Both the position numbers and the translations under genes were made by a program. This document shows, piece by piece, positions 25,090 through 54,200 of a DNA stretch of 64,000 nucleotides (positions are counted from its first letter, which is position 1; each line of letters begins with the position of its first letter). The DNA comes from Rhizophagus irregularis (Eukaryota; Glomeromycota; Glomeromycetes; Glomerales; Glomeraceae), in contig NC_089447.1 in NCBI RefSeq assembly GCF_026210795.1, positions 1,738,501-1,802,500 on the forward strand, written 5' to 3'. The notes under the pieces are model-generated. The model was given only the letters and a program-made list of their open reading frames with translations. It was not told the DNA's origin and searched no databases.

Positions 25090-25783
25090 ATTAATGCATG
25101 CCAAGTAAGAGCCCAATCAACCATATACTGAGATGAGTCTGATAGTAAAGAAGTAAAACGGAAACGAGAAAGAGCTAAAAGGTCTTTCATATATAACATT
25201 TGATGATATTGTTTAAACAAATGTCTTGGATTAGATTCACAGATCACGTCATCATAGACCAAAATATAATCATGAACTGCGGCTAGGTCAAGGCGAAAAA
25301 TAAGAACAGCGTCCTCAGATGTATGTGCTATATTAGCTAAAGAGTCAGCAAAGTCATTCCAATAAAAATTAGAGTGCACTTTAACTTTGAAGGATAGAAC
25401 TGAAAGGTTTTTGTCTACAATCAATTTTTGAATAATAGCCCAAAGTTCAAAGTTGGTGGTCTTATAATAAAGACGGGAATCTAAATAATCAGATAGGAAA
25501 CAATGTTTCAAACCCTCAATGGAAATCTGTGAATCAGTATAAATATAAATAACAGATTTTGCAGGAGAAGCTGACAAGGCTGCATAAATAGCAGCAGCTT
25601 CGGCTCAAGAAGAGGAAGGCCAATCGTGAATAACACCCCGTTTATAGGTGGCAATGGAATTAAGGAAGCCAGAATCTTTAACAATTTGAACCCAGCCCCA
25701 ACTCATAGAGATATCACTAGTTCCTAAATTAATAAGAGCATCAGGAAATTATATAGTGCGAAAAGTTGCGCAAGTTTACACAT

Positions 25784-26850
25784 CATAATATTTCGTAAGC
25801 TTCCAGACCCGCCGCAAGTTTGCGTAAGCGTAATATTTTGTAACTTTTTAAAATATTTCGAAATATTACGATATGCAAAGCTTCGTAATTTTACGATTTG
25901 TAATATTCCGTAATTTTGCGGTTCGCAATATTTCGTAATTTTACATAATATTTCGTAAGTTTTCAGACCCGTCGCAAGTTTGCGTAAACGTAATATTTTG
26001 TAACTTTTTAAAATATTTCGAAATATTACTGTATGCAAGGCTTCGTAATTTTACGATTCGTAATATTCCGTAATTTTACTGCGTAATACTTCGCAACTTT
26101 TTTAAAATATTTCGAAATTCTATGATGCGTAATGTTCCATAATTTGATGATTCGTAATATTCTGTGATTTTACACAACTTAATATTTCGTAATATTTCAA
26201 AATATTTCGATAAATAATACTTCATTTTCTGTACTATAAGTTTATATAATGTATGTTTTATTAGATATAATCATAAAAAATTACAAGTATTTATTAATAT
26301 ATACAGAATACATAAAAGTAAAAAAAGAAAGAGTAGAGTAACAATATTATTAGACGTAAAAAGAAGAGAAACAGCTATAGTAACGTTAGTATTAGATATA
26401 AAGATAAAAGAAATATTGTTATTATTGTTAGTATTAAGGTAAAAAGAGTTAAAGAAACAGTAAAAGGAGTAAAAGAAACATGGATATTATCGTTAGTATT
26501 AAAGTACAAGTAAAAAGAAATAAAGGAAACGTAGATAGTATTGTTAGTATTACGACATAAAGTAACAAAGAGGTAAAAAAAAATGCGTTAATATTAAAAT
26601 AATTAGTATTAATAAATAAATATTTCTATACCTGCAAAGTAATTGAACAAAAGAATAAAGAAATAAAGAGAAAGGAAAAAATAAACATGTTGTTAGTATT
26701 GTTAGTATCGTTAGTATTAAAGTACAAGTAAAAAGGAATAAAGGAAACATGGATATTATTGTTAGTATTACGATACAAAATAACAAAGAGGTAAAAAAAA
26801 ATGAAAATAATTAGTATTAATAAACAAATATTTCTATACCTGCAAAGCAA
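25784..26850. repeat. Left subterminal repeats of the CATCAGG element
   Basis: Two direct copies about 161 bp apart (CATAATATTTCGTAAG start at 25784 and 25945) consist of CGTAATATT words. Farther in, a unit of about 208 bp (AGTATTAAAGTACAAG at about 26494 and 26702) is repeated with small changes. Apparent minus-strand frames here are low-complexity products of the repeats. Confidence 0.7.
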
Positions 26851-27790
26851 TAAATTATGAAATATATGTAAATATATTGTATATAATTAAAGAAATAATA
26901 GAAAGAAGAGACAAAAAAATTAAAAATATTGAACAAAAGAATAAAGAAATAAGAAACAAAAATAAATAAGACAAAAACGCGTGCATGATTAAATGATTAA
27001 ATCACATGCAAGGATCAGCCTAATTTTGATTGGCCAGAAAATACGATATCATAAAATTACAGAAATTTGCATTTTAAAAAATTATGTATATTGTACAGCA
27101 GGTGTGACATAAATAAATCGTGACTGAAATTTGTGTTCAATTTGTGTTGATAATTCTGGTAAAAAATTATTAATTTTGGCCAAATTTCGTTAAATTTGTT
27201 AAATTTGTGTTGAGTTTGTGTTGAATTTGTGTTGCGTAATTTTTTATTTATCACAAAGGGATGATATTTAGTAATTGCATGTACGACGTACAAGATTTTT
27301 TTTTATGATTTTTTTAAGAAATGTACGCAAAATATTTAATCAGAATATAATTGTTTTATTTTTAAATATGATATATTGATTTTTTTTTAAAAAAAAAATT
27401 GATTTTTTTAAAATTCAATAGAATGTGCTAATAATAAATTGGTTTATTTTTAAATATAATATATTGATATTTATATTTAAATAACCAAAACATGTACATG
27501 ATTTTTAATTATTTTTAATTGAAATCAAACTAAGATTTTTTTTTAAAAAAAAATTAAAATAAATTAAGTGATTTATATTTATATTTAGAATCATGATATT
27601 TATATTTAGATAATCCATATCCGCATGAGATTTAATTAATATGTTTAATGATGAAAAGTCTAATAAATTAAATTTTAATTGAAACGAGAAATAAAATCAA
27701 ACCAAAGAGGTATTGTTCAAATTTTATTTAAAGTGACATTTTACGACTTTCTTTCAAATTTTTACTCATCCCAAAATCAAATTACTAATA

Positions 27791-28415
27791 ATGCCTCGCC
27801 ACACACGTCGTCGTTCCCACTATAACGTCCATTGGAACTGGGCTATGATGGACGAACTTGTTGACATACGCCGAGACAGAAACCGCACCTACCACAATAT
27901 TAATGGTAGAAGCCGCCAAGATTTTTGGGACTCTGTTGCCAATAGGTTCATATGACTAATATCTATAATTTCTTTAAGAAAGAATTTAAATTCAAATTAA
28001 CCAATCCATTTAATTGAATCAGAATAAATAGAATATTTCGAATGAGGGTTTCCGGGCAACAGTGCAGCCAAAAGTGGAGGAACCTCGTCAGGGATTACCA
28101 TGTAAGTAAATAAATAACATTACATTCATATAAATTAAATGTATTTACCGAATATTCAAACTGATTTTGATATTTAGAACTATGTCCTTTATCGTAATGG
28201 TAACCCTGGGCGGCGGCTGTGGACGCGTACCGGCGCAAGATATTATCGTGAATTTAGAACGAGATTTTGGGAGAGGCCGGGTAATTATACTATAATAAAA
28301 TTTATAATTAATATTTACGTTCATGTTTTAAATTTGATAAATTTGATCAATTTTAGTCATGCGTGACGATCGTAGGGCAAGGAGAAACTTACCTACGTAT
28401 CGTAGAAGAAGATAA
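27791..28415 (+). CDS. Myb/SANT-like DNA-binding protein encoded inside a transposable element
   Basis: Four exons (27791-27945, 28032-28101, 28178-28280, 28357-28415) join in frame to 128 aa, using GTAAGT and similar donors and TTTAG or AATAG acceptors. The order HWNWAMMDELVDIRRDR, FWDSVANRIFRMR, then GQQCSQKWRNLVRDYH follows the three-helix Myb/SANT (trihelix-type) pattern: spaced tryptophans, FW..VA, and QC..KW.NL. The C-terminal 45 residues are very Arg-rich (RRARRNLPTYRRRR). Likely role: binding the repeated subterminal motifs of its own element, as Myb-like accessory proteins do in PIF/Harbinger transposons (analogy only). The intact frame in a region of decay suggests recent function. 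GC content is clearly higher than the surroundings. Confidence 0.78.
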
Positions 28416-28780
28416 TTATTTTTATTTTTTTATTATTTATTAAGTGAGTAGCTAGTCCGTACCAAATATCGGCTGGAGACTCACGTTTTTTTGGGCTGTG
28501 ACTGATACTGACGTCCACGCCGTACAGCCTGGGTACTATTTTATAAAATAGTAGCGAACAAGTATCAAATGTGTATTTTTTTTATTAAGTTATAATAAAA
28601 ATTAGAATTTACTTTAATTTTTAACATAAAAATTGTAAATAATAAAAAATTCGTAAATAAAAATAAATTTGCTTTCCCAAACTTAAAAAAAAAGGTGTTT
28701 ATATAAAAGAAAAGGTGTTTATATTATTTTTGATTATTCAATAGTATCACATGCCATTTGTATACGTTCTACTGCATATG

Positions 28781-29280
28781 CAGTTTACAATCTCGTAAAT
28801 TTTCGAAATATTTCAACCGTAATATTACGCAGGTTTACAGTTTCGTAAATTTTCGAAATATTTCAACCGTAATATTACGCAGGTTTACAGTTTCGTAAAT
28901 TTGCAGAATATTTTGACCGTAATATTACGCAGGTTTACAGTTTCGTAAATTTTTGAAATATTTTAACCGTAATATTACGCAGGTTTACAGTTTCGTAAAT
29001 TTTCGAAATATTTTAACCGTAATATTACGCAGGTTTACAGTTTCATAAATTTTCGAAATATTTCAACCGTAATATTACGCAGGTTTACAGTTTCGTAAAT
29101 TTTCAAAATATTTTAACCGTAATATTACGCAGGTTTACAGTTTCGTAAATTTTCGAAATATTTCAACCGTAATATTACGCAGGTTTACAGTTTCGTAAAT
29201 TTTCGAAATATTTCAACCGTAATATTACGCAGGTTTACAGTTTCGTAAATTTGCAGAATATTTTGACCGTAATATTGCGT
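28781..29280. repeat. 50-bp tandem array, about 9-10 copies
   Basis: The unit contains AGGTTTACAGTTTCGTAAAT followed by TTCGAAATATTTCAACC and CGTAATATTACGC. It repeats at 28831, 28881, 28931, 28981, 29031, 29081, 29131, 29181 and 29231 with one to four changes each. It forms the right subterminal part of the CATCAGG element and is a plausible array of protein-binding sites. Confidence 0.92.
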
Positions 29281-29874
29281 AAATCTTACGATATTGAAAA
29301 CTCACGTAATATTTTAACCGTAATATCACATAAATCTTACGAAATTGTAAACTTACGTAATATTTTGAAATTTTTCGAAATATTATGCCATAAACTTTCG
29401 TAAACTTACAAAATCGTAAACTTAAGCAATTTTTCGCGCTATAAAATTTCCTGATGAGAACCATCAGTGTAAAAGGTATAATGTGAATCTGGAGAGAGCA
29501 CAACTGATGATGATGCAGCAACATCACCAGCCGTGAATAAAGGTGAAGCAGGCGAAGCCATGTCAACAGTGCCAATAGAAGTACAAGAAATATCAGCAGC
29601 TAATGCTGAACGAACAGAGAGATTACAATTTGAAATAACATAATCCATAATTTCAGCCCATGATACCGTAGCAAACAAGCTGGATGTGTGATTCATAATG
29701 GATGATTTCTTCATAGGTAAAATCCATGACTGACGAAGAGAAACCGAATAGGAGCAAGCCACAGAACTAGTAGCAACTGATTTCTTTGAGTAGGAAGATT
29801 TATTTATATTCAAATTACAACCAGGACAAGGTTGTAGGGTAATCAAATCGCTCGAACAGGATAAGTCACACTTT

Positions 29875-29933
29875 CGGTCAAACATGGCATAGTAGCCTTT
29901 ATCTTTATTAATTATTTATCAAACTTTACAAAA
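29875..29933 (-). mobile_element. Tail-only LINE fragment at the same target site
   Basis: These 59 bp match the 3' tail of the long LINE fragment (about 23756-23815, containing AATAATTAATAAAGATAAAG on the minus strand). They are flanked by the same 12-bp AAGTCACACTTT (29863-29874 and 29934-29945), so a second, extremely 5'-truncated insertion used the same site. Confidence 0.75.
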
Positions 29934-37489: not shown

Positions 37490-38050
37490 AGCATGGTCAT
37501 GCTCAAATGCTGTAAAATAGAAACAGAACTATTGGTTTTTGGTTTTTACAATTTGATTTGTATGTTTTTATCTTTTAAATAGAATTTTCCTTAAGTTAAA
37601 CATTCTACACCTTACAGTATTTATATGTAGCTAACCAGTTTTTAGGTTAGAAAAAACAATATGGGCTTTAATTAAAGTTGCATTGGGCAAATTTTTAGGT
37701 AGATCTTGACAGTCACCTAAAATTTTTGGTTGTATTATTGTTTTTAATAGTGATATAAGTATCTAGGTGACAGGTTGACTTTTTCTGAGTAGTCTTTTTC
37801 ATAATACTTAGTTCTTATATATATTATATTTTTCTTATTTTTATAAGTTTAGTATATGTAAGTAGATGTAATTATATTAAAACAAAATTGTATCTATAGA
37901 AATTAATAAAAAAAAAAAAATCTTTTTTATAATTTAGAAATTTCATTTAAAATAATAATATATATTATAATTGCTTACTGTATATTTCATAAAATTTATG
38001 AATTGTTTATATAATATATAAATTTAATATTAATAAACATATATAAACTA

Positions 38051-38572
38051 CATCAGGAAATTTGTTTAGGCGTAATTTAGTGTAATATTTCGAAGGTGGT
38101 GTAAAATTTCGAAATATTACACTAAAAACGTAATATTACAAAAGTTTACGCTCTTAAATTTGAATAATTATAGTAATTTAAGAATATCTCGCTATCTACT
38201 GATCCAATCAAGACGATCTATAGCTCATTGGAATCAGCTCATCAAGACGGATCGAATGGTAGTAAAATCGCATTTCTACAGTTGATAGAACGCTCTATAG
38301 TATGCAGTAAAGTTTTAAATTAATAGAAAATCATCTATCGAACGTAAAGATACGATTTTACTACCATTCGATTCGTCTTGATGAGCTGATTCCAATGAGC
38401 TATAGATCGTCTTGATTGGATCAGTAGATAGCGAGATATTCTTAAATTACTATAATTATTCAAATTTAAGAGCGTAAACTTTTGTAATATTACGTTTTTA
38501 GTGTAATATTTCGAAATTTTACACCACCTTCGAAATATTACACTAAATTACGCCTAAACAAATTTCCTGATG
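38051..38572. mobile_element. 522-bp near-perfect palindrome, CATCAGG family
   Basis: Each half is the reverse complement of the other over more than 200 bp with only a few mismatches, apart from a short unpaired centre (about 38280-38345). Ends CATCAGGAAATTTGTTTAGG are flanked by TA on both sides. The arms contain TTTCGAAATATTACAC words like those of the 3.7-kb element, and internally the shared core (CATTGGAATCAGCTCATC ... AATGGTAGTAAAATCG). It would form a giant hairpin. No coding capacity. Confidence 0.9.
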
Positions 38573-38574
38573 TA

Positions 38575-48290: not shown

Positions 48291-51200
48291 AATTATAAAT
48301 TTATGAAAGAAAAAAAAGAGAAAAAAGGGACAAAAAAAAGATAAAATAAAATAAGAAAGTTAAAAAGAGAGAGAGAGAAAGAAAAAGGAAAGTTCTAAAA
48401 AGCTCGCTTCGCTTATTGATAATCTTGTAATACCAATTATGCACAATTACGCATGGTTTAATGTCAGGCAGAATTAAGTATATAATGCTAGTCAAATAAT
48501 ATAGTGTATATATATATTAAGACAATTTTAGATAAAAAGGTAAAAAGGAACAAAAGAATAAAAATGAATTATGTCAAAAGCCGATCCATGACGAATTTTT
48601 TCGAATTCCTTTTATCCAATAAGTAAGGTAAAAAATTTTTTTTTTACGATAAAAAAAGGAATTTCGGGAAACAAACGAAACAAATTAATAAAAAAATCAC
48701 ACGGAGTAACACACAATGACAAACAAGAATATCACCATACTATTGAGATTTACAAACATCGCATGATTCAAAGTCTAGAAAATACGAAATGTATTGGTTA
48801 GTGTAATACACATAATTCATGATCATTTACAGTACAGGAAAAAAATGAGTATTTACAAACTATACAGAGTAGTTTAAAGTCTAAATTAAATGCATGTAAT
48901 GCATGAAGTTTATATAATATTATAGTGTGGCAAAACATTATAAACAACACAACATATTTGTATCACAATCTCTACATTTTTGTTTTGCTTTTCATTTCCA
49001 AAGTTGTAAACAAAAAAAAAAATCAACAAAACGAAAGAAAAAAGCGCAGTATATTCTTACCATATTCGCTAAGCCAGGAGACTTACAATCACAAAATGAC
49101 CAAGCCAAAGGATTTTATCATAAATGTTACAACGATGATACTTTTATGCTTAGCAAAAAGAAAAAGAAAGGATAACGGCTTACTAAATAAAGAGGGATAT
49201 ATGTATATATATATGCTTATCTTACAATTTCGTAATAACATGACGATCTATGTAATATAAAATGAAATGATTTTCATGATATTCCATCCAATTAAAATTT
49301 ACTTATCAGTTACGGTATGATTTGAATGAAAAAAAAAAAAATGGGTTATTCTAAATTTGGATAGTAGAATGAATTTTACAAAAATTTCTTTAGAGAATAT
49401 CATTTTATAATTTATATTTGACATTTAAATGATTTAAATGGGAACGAAAATATATATATATATATATATATATAGGGCATATTTTTTAGCGGAATTCTGA
49501 TTAAATGAAAAAAAGAAATTTTATAATTTTATAATATTTTAACAGTTTAGTTAACGGATATATTATTATTACAAGGTCTAATTTTGGTAAGAAATAATAA
49601 AAAAAAAAAAATTTTTTTTAAAAGAAATTTATTTATTTTCTTTTGTCAAAAAATCAAAGAATATATATTTGACATGCATACTGTAAAAATTGAATCATCT
49701 GTAGACACATCGTAATTAAGCATGCAACATGACAATCAATACGGCCATTATTACTTGAAAGAAGTTTGAGTCCGAATAAAAAAAGTTTACTTTTTTTTTT
49801 TTATTTTATTTTTATTATTGAGTGATTCATCGGATTTGCATTACAGTAGTAACCTAAGGATTTGACTCTCCGATAATTTTCTTGGTGTCCTCTTTATTTG
49901 GTTACTCACTTCATTCTTTATCAATATTATTTTGGGTTTGATTATTAATTGTTTGTATACACAATATATTCAAGCTAATAATTGTATTTTATTTATATCT
50001 GCTATAAAATGACACAGATAAATTAGTACAACATAATTGTAATCATTACAATTCCTTTTATGTTTGAATATATCTCATCGTTCTCCTCTCTATGTTCTGT
50101 ATCACCTAGTTTTTCCTTTTTTTGCAAAGTTATGAATTTCATTTCCCGTTATTATTCAAAATAATTTAAATTTTTTTTTTATAAAAAAAAAAAATAATAA
50201 ATACAAAAAAAAATACCAAAAAAAATCCAAAAAATACCAAAAAAAAAAAAAAAAAAAATATGATATAATATAATATAATATAATATAATAATATAATAAA
50301 TATAATATAATAATAATAAAAATAAATAATAATAATAATAAATTGATTGGATTATGCGTTAGAATATGCCTTTAAGCAGGTAAAAAAAAGATTTAAACCA
50401 ATTTTATCCAATGGATATTTCATGTAGAAACAGGTGCATATTGTGCTAATACTTAAAGCAAGTTTTTTCACATAAACTTTACTTGTAATAGAATCAAAAG
50501 TGAGCCACTATCCTCCAAATCAAGAACTAATCAAGATTATTATATTAATATATATAATAATAATAATTATTTATTAGTATTTTTGTCCTTTTTTTTTTTT
50601 TTTTACTTTATATTTATTTATTTGTAGTACAATAAATATGTAGGTTTTGCCATACATAAATAATTTATATTTGCTGAATTGCTGTTTGGCCGTTCTGTTG
50701 CAGTTATTGCCGTAATTGTTTAAAATATACATAAATAATTTTCACTTTTAAAAATAAACTAATCCATTTATATTATTTAACTTTAATAATCAAACTGATT
50801 CCGATTTTTTTTATTTATTTTTTTTTATTTTTTTTTTACATATATACATTTTATACGATTTATATACATTTATACGCCCTTACCCAAATTAAGCATTGAT
50901 ACTGTGACCTCCACGTAACACCGAAACTTTCCCTCCTTCATCTATAAATACGGTCAATTGCCATCATCCACTCCCCCTTTTTTCTCAAAATTTGCCATCC
51001 AATTTTTTTTTTTTTTACTTTGTGAGATTAAACTAAAAAAAAAAATCTAACCACTATAAATACTTCACAATTTCCCTTTTTTTTTAATAAAAAACTATTT
51101 TTTTCTTAAAAAAAATAATCGATTTTTTTGTTTTTTTTTTAAAAAAAAAAGAAAGGTTTATATATATATATAATTATATAAGGAATATTTAAATTTTTTT

Positions 51201-51297
51201 ATATATTATATATATATATATTTATTATTATTATTATTATCATAAAAAAAAAAACTTTGTAAATTTTTTTCTTTTTCCTTTAAAAATTTTATTTTTC
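48291..51297. other. 3-kb gene-free leader of the TFIIB-like gene
   Basis: No convincing coding region. Short frames near 48925-49260 are not conserved-looking. The region has homopolymers, a TA run near 49452, TAATA repeats at 50255-50340, and from 50940 T/C-rich tracts with several T/A homopolymers leading to the ATG at 51298. No transposon ends were found, unlike most other gaps of this size here, which suggests a long 5' leader or regulatory region (inference). Confidence 0.5.
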
Positions 51298-54200
51298 ATG
51301 AATCAGGAACGAGTAAATAATAATAGTTTCGCGTTTGTAATGGAAGATCCTTCAAAACCAAGAAAATATCAACTTAATTTTCAACTAAATGATAATCATC
51401 AATTTAAAGAATCACCGCTTATACAACCAACAATGGATCAAAGTTTAGCTTCGCATCATCTTCATAATCCTCAACATCATTCACTTCATCATATTGATCA
51501 CAATCCTCTACCAAGACAAACTTCGTCGATCACACTTCCTTCTATAAAAGAATTAATGCAAATTCCACCATCTCCTGTACCTCCTCCTCCATCACTACCT
51601 CCATCTTTACCTCCTACTCAAAGAATATTACAACAACAACAACAACATCATCACCATCATCATCACCATCATCATCAACAACAGCAGCAACAACAGCAGC
51701 AACAACAACAGCAGCAGCAGCAGCAGCAGCAACAACAACAACAACAATTTTTACAGCATCATCATAATATTCATTCTCAACATAAAACAGAATCTTTAAT
51801 TTCTTCATCGAGGCCTCATCTACCTCCTTTACTTGATACACCTCAACATCCTTCTAATTTTAATTATCCTTTTAATGCTACTTCACGTAATGATAATAGA
51901 AACGAAAGGATTGATTCACATTTACAAATATCACAACATTCACAACATTCACAACATTCACAACAACAGCATTCATCTCATTTATTATCACAACATACTC
52001 ATCAACGTCCCTTAATGTCGTCGTCTTCAACACCAGAAGTTTCTTCATATTATTCATCTCATTCTTACCCATCTCATTCTACAAATACACAATATTCTGT
52101 AAATCATAAAATTAATCCTACCCCTCCTCCTTCATCTCAACATCATGTACATTATCAACAACCTCAGTTACCACAATCGCAGCGATCCCCTCCTCATCAA
52201 GTACAAGTTTTACCACAACAGATGCAGCCCTCACAACGAATGTTACATCAACAACATCAATCTCATCATCATCACTTACAACATTCGTTACCAATGTCTC
52301 ACCATCAAACAACTCAATCGCAGCAACAAATACAGCAAGGGTATCATCCTCCTCCTCCTCCTCCTACTCACTCTCTTCCTCCTTCCTCTTCTCATCATCA
52401 TTCTAATGTATATAATAACGAAGTTATGGCAGTAGTACCTGAAAGAAATCAGCTCGATCATCAATCTTCCGCTACTTCTGTTGCTTCTCGTGCTCCTTAT
52501 AATTCTCATTATTATTCCTCTCAGGTGTATCCAAATAACCCTCCAATAATTTCCACTCCATCACATGTGACTTCCTCTCATGGTCGTAATGCACCATTAA
52601 CTGAGTATCAAGCTGTTCGTGATGTTCGTGATGTTCGTGATGTTCGTGATGCTCGTGATGTTCGTGATGTTTCGTTAAGTAATGAACATCATCAACACCA
52701 TCAACAACAAAATGGTATTTCTGGTCATGTACAGCAATATCCTCAAGTTCAACACCCTCAAGTTCAACACCCTCAAGTTCAACACCCTCAAGTTCAACAC
52801 CCTCAGGTTCAACACCCTCAGGTTCAACACCCTCAGGTTCAACATCCTCAGGTTCAACATCCTCAGGTTCAACATCATCAGGTTCAACATCCTCAAATTC
52901 AACAACAACAACAACAAATGTACATTCAAAATCATCATCATCAGCAGCAGCAGCAGCAACAACAACAACAGCAACAACAGCAGCAACAACAGCAGCAACA
53001 ACAACAACTACAACCACTACAAGTTTCTCATTTGCAAGTTCCTCCACAAAATATTTCTCGTCCTCTTACGCCACCGCAGTTAAACTTGCCTCCACAGCAA
53101 CCACAAATTCAAAATCAATTTTTATTGGAGAATCGTGAAACTTCACCATTTCATTTGGCGGCACCTTCGCATCATCATTCAGGAAGTAATTCGTCGGTTT
53201 CCACTCGATCATCATCTCCTGCACCTAGCACTCCTGTAGCTTCTAATAATCTTCCATTTTCTCCTAATGGTGGTAGTCATGTTAATAATACGGTTAATAA
53301 TAATAGTATTGATAAATCTCTTGAACAGAATGTTTCTGTTAAAAAGAAGGGACGTTCTAAACCACCGAGACCTATTGTACCTGCTGGACCTATACCAAAT
53401 CAACAACCTATATCTAATAATCAACCTTTACCAACAAATACTCCAAATGATCCTCTTGTGTTTGTACAATATTCAAATTCTTCAAATAATAATACTCCGA
53501 CAAAACCGCCATCATCTAGATCAAGAAAAAATAGTATATCTGGTGTCTCAGCTCCTCTCGTTTCAAAACGCGGTAGAAAAGCTAAAGATTCATCATCAAC
53601 AGCAGCAGCCACCATGCAAACAAAGGTTGATGATGATGTTTATAATGTTATTCCATTCACTCCAACTACTGTATCGGAGAATAATGAGAAGAATGTTGCA
53701 CAAAGTCGTAAGAGAGATTATTCTTCTTCAAATGAGAGTCAAAATAACAAAAGGTATAGAAAAGATGAAGATGTACATGTTATTCAAGATGATGATGATA
53801 CAATGGAAGATGTTATTCATAATGTGAAGGAAGAGGAACCAAAGATGGACGTTGATGATGAAGGAGTCAAATTACTCTTATCATTGAAGGGTGATAATGC
53901 AACTACTTTGGTGAATAATGTTTCAGAAAATACGGTTACCGTTGACAAACCTGTGGTAGAAGAACGTGTTCAGGATATCAAAATTAAAGAGGAGCCTTCA
54001 ATCAACAAAGTTGTTACACCAATTAATGAACCAGTTGTTAAAAATGAAATTGATATAAAGCCGGAACCGGTTGACCAAGTGGTAACAAAAAAAGTCAGAG
54101 AAATGTCAATTACGGATGAAGAAAAACAATCTTATGTACAAAAGAAAGCTGCTCTTAAATCACCAAAAAATACAATAAAATCTGAGTTTCCTGAGAAGAT

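Follow-up and report, generated by a model that had tools for sequence, protein, structure and literature searches.

What kind of transposon carries its own Myb/SANT gene and no visible transposase, and what moves it? The question is posed by a 3,718-bp element (positions 25739-29456) in a stretch of 64,000 nucleotides from Rhizophagus irregularis (contig NC_089447.1, positions 1,738,501 to 1,802,500; hereafter the window). A preliminary reading of the letters, made without database searches (the sequence-only reading), had proposed a possibly undescribed family that depends on a partner for its nuclease. Our analysis supports the dependence and removes the novelty: the element is very probably an internally deleted, non-autonomous copy of a two-gene fungal DNA transposon of the Plavaka superfamily, of PlavakaB type and related to CACTA/EnSpm. 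While the superfamily is a known one, the unexpected part is the accessory Myb/SANT gene within a Plavaka element.

The architecture foreseen in the sequence-only reading was confirmed on all points. The element has inverted CATCAGGAAATT ends with AG flanking each side, and these ends agree at 12/12, 17/18 and 36/41 positions as the comparison is lengthened. CATCAGGAAAT is found in the window at four exact positions (two inverted pairs) and at five with up to one mismatch, the corresponding control of 100 shuffles giving a mean of 1.75 and a maximum of 4. Repeat arrays lie in both subterminal regions, that on the left comprising 1.8 copies of a 160-bp unit and 2.4 of a 94-bp unit (the right-hand array is given in Table 1). 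When the element and one AG are excised in silico, the flanks fuse into a single open minus-strand frame (...YTDGSLINLG...); because the interrupted frame is restored in this way, AG is a genuine 2-bp target-site duplication, for which the frame is independent evidence. The interrupted target occupies window positions 25605-25736 and 29459-29915 on the minus strand, and its YTDGS segment resembles what we take to be an RNase H motif, so that the target was probably a retroelement gene. The duplication, reading AG here and GT in a second CATCAGG-ended pair (locus L069), likewise upholds the earlier exclusion of three superfamilies: we reject hAT, with 8 bp (5-8 bp are recorded in parts of PMC12730594), Tc1/mariner, which uses TA only, and canonical Harbinger, to which we return below.

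The four-exon gene also proved to be intact. Its three introns are all GT..AG, its frame is uninterrupted, and the 128-aa product matches Myb_DNA-bind_4 in Pfam (E 8.4e-9, 36.2 bits against a cut-off of 27), with a further weak match to the GT-1 DNA-binding domain (E 0.014); plant GT-1 is a trihelix factor. Compared with the majority of 30 copies, the window gene shows four changes, all of the CpG-transition type, three of which alter the amino acid.

As to the transposase, none had been visible from the letters, and none was found: no Plavaka fragment was detected in the window, the best match (E 0.11) lying outside the element. Between stop codons no frame of the element exceeds 108 aa, save one of 124 aa crossing the right edge, with the Pfam scan confined to the Myb frame. 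The relatives tell where the transposase is to be sought. We searched the R. irregularis genome (146,748,485 bases in 32 contigs) with the Myb protein, obtaining at least 246 matches (554 first-look candidates, 150 scored), and with the Plavaka domain PF18759, obtaining at least 123 (180 candidates, 123 scored). Linkage was assessed between the 108 listed Myb matches that span the first part of the protein (exon-1 matches) and all 123 listed Plavaka matches. A Plavaka match stands upstream on the same strand within 12 kb of 56 of the 108, at a distance of 2,502-3,192 bp in 51 of these pairs and of 4.3-7.7 kb in the other five; none of the 108 has a listed Plavaka match on its downstream side only, and three pairs on opposite strands occur within 12 kb. 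Further, a CATCAGGAAATTT end follows 1.35-1.89 kb downstream of 12 of the 13 Myb matches on contigs C1-C3 and on C4 up to 4.05 Mb, the part of the genome for which the listing of these ends is complete.

This linkage also bears on whether the element might instead be a PIF/Harbinger-ISL2EU member, that group having a Myb/SANT gene and, in part, 2-bp duplications. Speaking for such a placement, the element does possess a Myb/SANT gene, parts of PMC12730594 describe relatives of Harbinger whose duplications measure 0, 2 or 3 bp, and the genome holds at least six DDE_Tnp_4 loci with a Myb_DNA-bind_4 gene within 5 kb; of 42 DDE_Tnp_4 matches, one is 8.6 kb and another 9.4 kb away from a Myb match belonging to the set of 108. 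However, the other 40 have no Myb match of the element's family within 10 kb, as against the 56 linked to Plavaka, and the Myb match near C1:2875148 has a Plavaka match of its own. By eye, DDE_Tnp_4 is near listed CATCAGG ends only at C2:3332705 (7 kb) and C1:2875148 (11 kb). The two systems are alike in joining a transposase to a Myb-like protein, as portrayed in parts of PMC9179366, and differ in that (i) the transposase here is Plavaka and not DDE_Tnp_4; (ii) the duplication is of 2 and not 3 bp; (iii) the Plavaka-linked Myb genes share the orientation of their transposase, whereas the Harbinger Myb genes listed for this genome are opposite to theirs. In their arrangement, therefore, the Plavaka-Myb pairs are distinct from the Harbinger-Myb pairs of the same genome. 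The Harbinger placement is largely contradicted by the Plavaka linkage and is very improbable; with the duplication length and the mostly distant DDE_Tnp_4 matches, this leads us to reject Harbinger (PF13359).

The sequence-only reading had advised a search for larger copies with a DDE gene, and one on C1 (L070 and the adjoining L076, together 11.5 kb) has Plavaka, Myb and the same 3' end as the window element. The 9.3 kb that were read, of an estimated ~9.7 kb, contain in order a C2H2-like segment, Plavaka exons, Myb, the array of 50-bp units and a CATCAGG end adjoining TA. The transposase of this copy matches PF18759 at E 1.2e-24; all its other Pfam matches, the C2H2 zinc-finger-like segment included, fall below the cut-offs and are taken as chance. 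In the transposase frames CHSC, HSWVYH and then TETYESLH can be picked out by eye, corresponding to the C(2)C and H(3-4)H motifs that PlavakaB has between the second D and the last E, on which a tentative assignment of the catalytic residues would rest. Aligned to this copy, the window element matches sequence on either side of a 5.9-kb gap and hence appears to be the long form minus ~5.9 kb, the Plavaka transposase gene included.

The same deletion recurs elsewhere. Thirty copies had enough upstream sequence for their form to be typed: the long form runs on uninterrupted in 17, the deletion is present in 12 and one copy shows neither. Ten of the deleted copies form one cluster; the other two are L058 and L052, and in L052 the right breakpoint differs slightly. 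When the 3' flanks of the ten cluster copies were cross-compared, none matched another, indicating independent insertions. Among the listed matches, Plavaka is present in 13 of the 17 long-form copies and, on the same strand within 12 kb, in none of the ten short ones. A deletion common to short copies at unrelated sites implies that the short form spread with a transposase supplied from elsewhere, in agreement with the partner-supplied nuclease proposed at the outset.

The published account of PlavakaB, in the parts of PMC12730594 that concern us, gives CATCA..TGATG ends with duplications of 2 or 3 bp, places it in the CMCT clade, and groups Plavaka with EnSpm, Mirage, Chapaev and Transib. 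Our element resembles PlavakaB in its CATCA..TGATG ends, its 2-bp duplication and the Plavaka transposase of its longer copies. It differs in that the accessory gene described in those parts is a TET/JBP dioxygenase, where the longer form here has the Myb/SANT gene, and in that the window copy is without the transposase. Added to the directly observed anatomy, 2-bp duplication, deletion common to many sites and co-location of Plavaka and Myb genes, the PlavakaB-type label fits the published description in ends, duplication length and residue motifs. The proposal of an undescribed family is thereby withdrawn. Larger copies with a known transposase and a different duplication length had been named as what would tell against it: the known transposase is there, whereas the length of 2 bp stands uncontradicted.

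There was one further candidate for a partner, namely a nuclease unlike known ones, which would make the element part of a new partner-dependent family. At L069 on C3, a CATCAGG pair 6.8 kb apart with GT/GT flanks encloses a gene in which DDE-like motifs can be seen by eye. This gene, however, belongs to a separate nested element flanked by TTAA, since for copies of 98-99% identity in L072 and L073 the alignment is limited to L069 2808-7170. We therefore reject L069 as the autonomous partner, and attach next to no probability to such a family. The nested element (G000:C3; also in L072 and L073) is bounded by nearly matching GTCRTGATCCG ends, and its gene has several exons, one of which has 151 genome matches, those listed reaching down to 32% identity. 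Its six frames yielded no Pfam family above cut-off, and it is possibly Kolobok-like.

The ends of the Plavaka element are abundant. A genome-wide search for them, as recommended in the sequence-only reading, recovered the 13-mer CATCAGGAAATTT 546 times (279 on the plus and 267 on the minus strand) against 0 and 3 occurrences of the reversed control; TACATCAGGAAATTT occurs 228 times and CATCAGGAAATTTTT 150 times, positions being listed for 100 of the 546 CATCAGGAAATTT and 100 of the 150 CATCAGGAAATTTTT ends. TA adjoins 38 of 100 listed ends. Among 22 small-element pairs on C1-C4, TA flanks both sides in 12, one side in one and neither in nine (Fisher p 2e-5), with the L002 pair being discordant (CA and TA). 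The window itself holds a 522-bp fold-back relative, whose TA duplication at 38049 had been correctly called. Loci L006, L007, L008 and L069 527-2807 are other elements with CATCAGGAAATTTT ends and differing subterminal sequences.

The subterminal regions are rich in a short motif, AATATT(A/T)CG, which was picked after word counts in the element, so that its independent tests are the 522-bp relative and the remainder of the window. There are 45 sites in the element, 44 of them within its two subterminal regions, and six in the relative, where a first-order Markov model gives means of 0.53 and 0.07, respectively; the remaining 59,760 bases of the window have none. Further, 14 ten-mers of the subterminal arrays recur in one half of the fold-back element, whereas in 496 control stretches of the window the number never exceeded 12. 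The motif is absent from the sampled parts of L006, L007, L008 and L069, four CATCAGG-ended elements that accordingly seem to use other repeats.

Several observations weigh against the picture of a two-gene Plavaka transposon with dedicated subterminal sites. On the side of linkage, 52 of the 108 listed Myb matches have no listed Plavaka match within 12 kb; these may be deleted or decayed copies, or cases in which Plavaka or Myb matches went unscored. Conversely, 67 of the 123 listed Plavaka matches lack a Myb exon-1 match, four of them having another Myb-type match on the same strand 2.9-3.4 kb away. Such Myb-less Plavaka matches are seldom near the ends in question (near an exact CATCAGGAAATTTTT end in 2 of 43 testable cases and near an exact CATCAGGAAATTT end in 1 of 10), so that most seem to be other Plavaka families. 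On the side of the long form, the C1 sequence stops ~400 bp short of the expected 5' end, which makes ~9.7 kb an estimate. The motif contains CpG and was selected from the element itself, its tandem copies are non-independent, and the C1 long copy, as far as it was read, has 41 sites, of which 34 are subterminal and seven interior, with one more past the 3' end. Finally, no purifying selection on Myb was seen among the 30 copies after insertion: the changes (24 nonsynonymous and 5 synonymous in the short form, 40 and 13 in the long) fit the neutral expectation, and selection on the gene after insertion cannot be claimed.

The last point lends weight to a passenger view, in which the element captured or inherited its Myb/SANT gene but makes no use of it in transposition, the transposase alone recognizing the ends. 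Besides the neutral pattern of change, the 67 Plavaka matches without a downstream Myb exon-1 match favor it. Set against it are the consensus Myb coding sequence, which is identical in the long and deleted forms, and the survival of the gene, intact in 10 of 17 long, 6 of 10 short and 0 of 3 other copies (recent spread alone could explain both); the fixed side and strand of Myb relative to Plavaka; and the likeness of the motif-rich ends to those of two-protein CACTA elements. We consider the passenger view a serious possibility, if the less probable one.

The account of the element that we consider very probable is as follows. The full-length form of ~9.7 kb encodes a Plavaka DDE transposase followed downstream on the same strand by the Myb/SANT gene, the whole being bounded by CATCAGG ends and motif-rich subterminal arrays. 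The Plavaka protein would cut the CATCAGG ends. A deletion of ~5.9 kb took out the transposase, after which the short form multiplied by cut-and-paste driven in trans. With less certainty, though by a somewhat favored analogy, the Myb/SANT protein might bind the AATATT(A/T)CG sites and recruit or help the transposase. Binding of the repeats by this protein, already suggested in the sequence-only reading, is now better motivated, though still putative. The analogy draws on TnpA, a regulatory protein that binds the subterminal repeats of CACTA elements (parts of PMC8195511), and on the Harbinger Myb-like protein, which binds the ends and aids nuclear import (parts of PMC9179366). As presented in those parts of PMC8195511, CACTA/EnSpm (TnpD and TnpA) is similar in combining a transposase with a second protein, in its subterminal repeats and in its many deleted derivatives; it differs from the present case, which has CATCAGG instead of CACTA ends and a Myb/SANT trihelix protein in place of TnpA.

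The features at the two elements of the window are collected in Table 1. Away from both, GC skew is strongly negative at window positions 50001-54000 (-0.41 and -0.29), exceeding all other 2-kb steps.

Table 1. Features of the deleted Plavaka element and of its small relative (window positions).
Feature	Position	Strand	Basis
Left target-site duplication AG	25737..25738	.	Frame of interrupted gene restored on removal
Left terminal inverted repeat CATCAGGAAATT...	25739..25756	+	17/18 match to right end; 36/41 extended
5' subterminal repeat array, units 160/94/25 bp, AATATT(A/T)CG-rich	25784..26210	+	Repeat and motif counts
Apparent internal deletion junction	27082..27099	.	Two alignments: 27082-27095 and 27095-27099
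Myb/SANT exon 1	27791..27945	+	
Myb/SANT exon 2	28032..28101	+	
Myb/SANT exon 3	28178..28280	+	
Myb/SANT exon 4, including stop codon	28357..28415	+	
3' subterminal array, 50-bp unit x9.9 and 51-bp unit x2.2	28783..29366	+	Repeat and motif counts
Right terminal inverted repeat	29439..29456	-	Match to left end
Right target-site duplication AG	29457..29458	.	Frame restoration
Left target-site duplication TA, small relative	38049..38050	.	
522-bp fold-back non-autonomous relative, same ends, 6 subterminal motif copies	38051..38572	.	
Right target-site duplication TA, small relative	38573..38574	.	

In the one literature collection searched we found no report of a Myb gene in a Plavaka element, a statement that applies to that collection. 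Parts of PMC11075540 record a high prevalence of Plavaka in several strains of R. irregularis and two thirds of the transposable elements of this fungus as having remained unclassified; our result assigns to Plavaka a set of ends present in many copies, a related miniature element and a family of Myb/SANT genes. In evolutionary terms, it is an evenly balanced proposition that in this fungus a Plavaka lineage acquired a trihelix protein of Myb/SANT type dedicated to recognizing the ends, in parallel to TnpA and the Harbinger Myb. The protein and the repeats would then co-evolve as family-specific subterminal codes deciding which deleted or miniature elements mobilize. The element is also an example, amenable to experiment, of how a DNA-binding accessory protein and a subterminal motif might delimit the set of elements mobilized by a CMC-type transposase.

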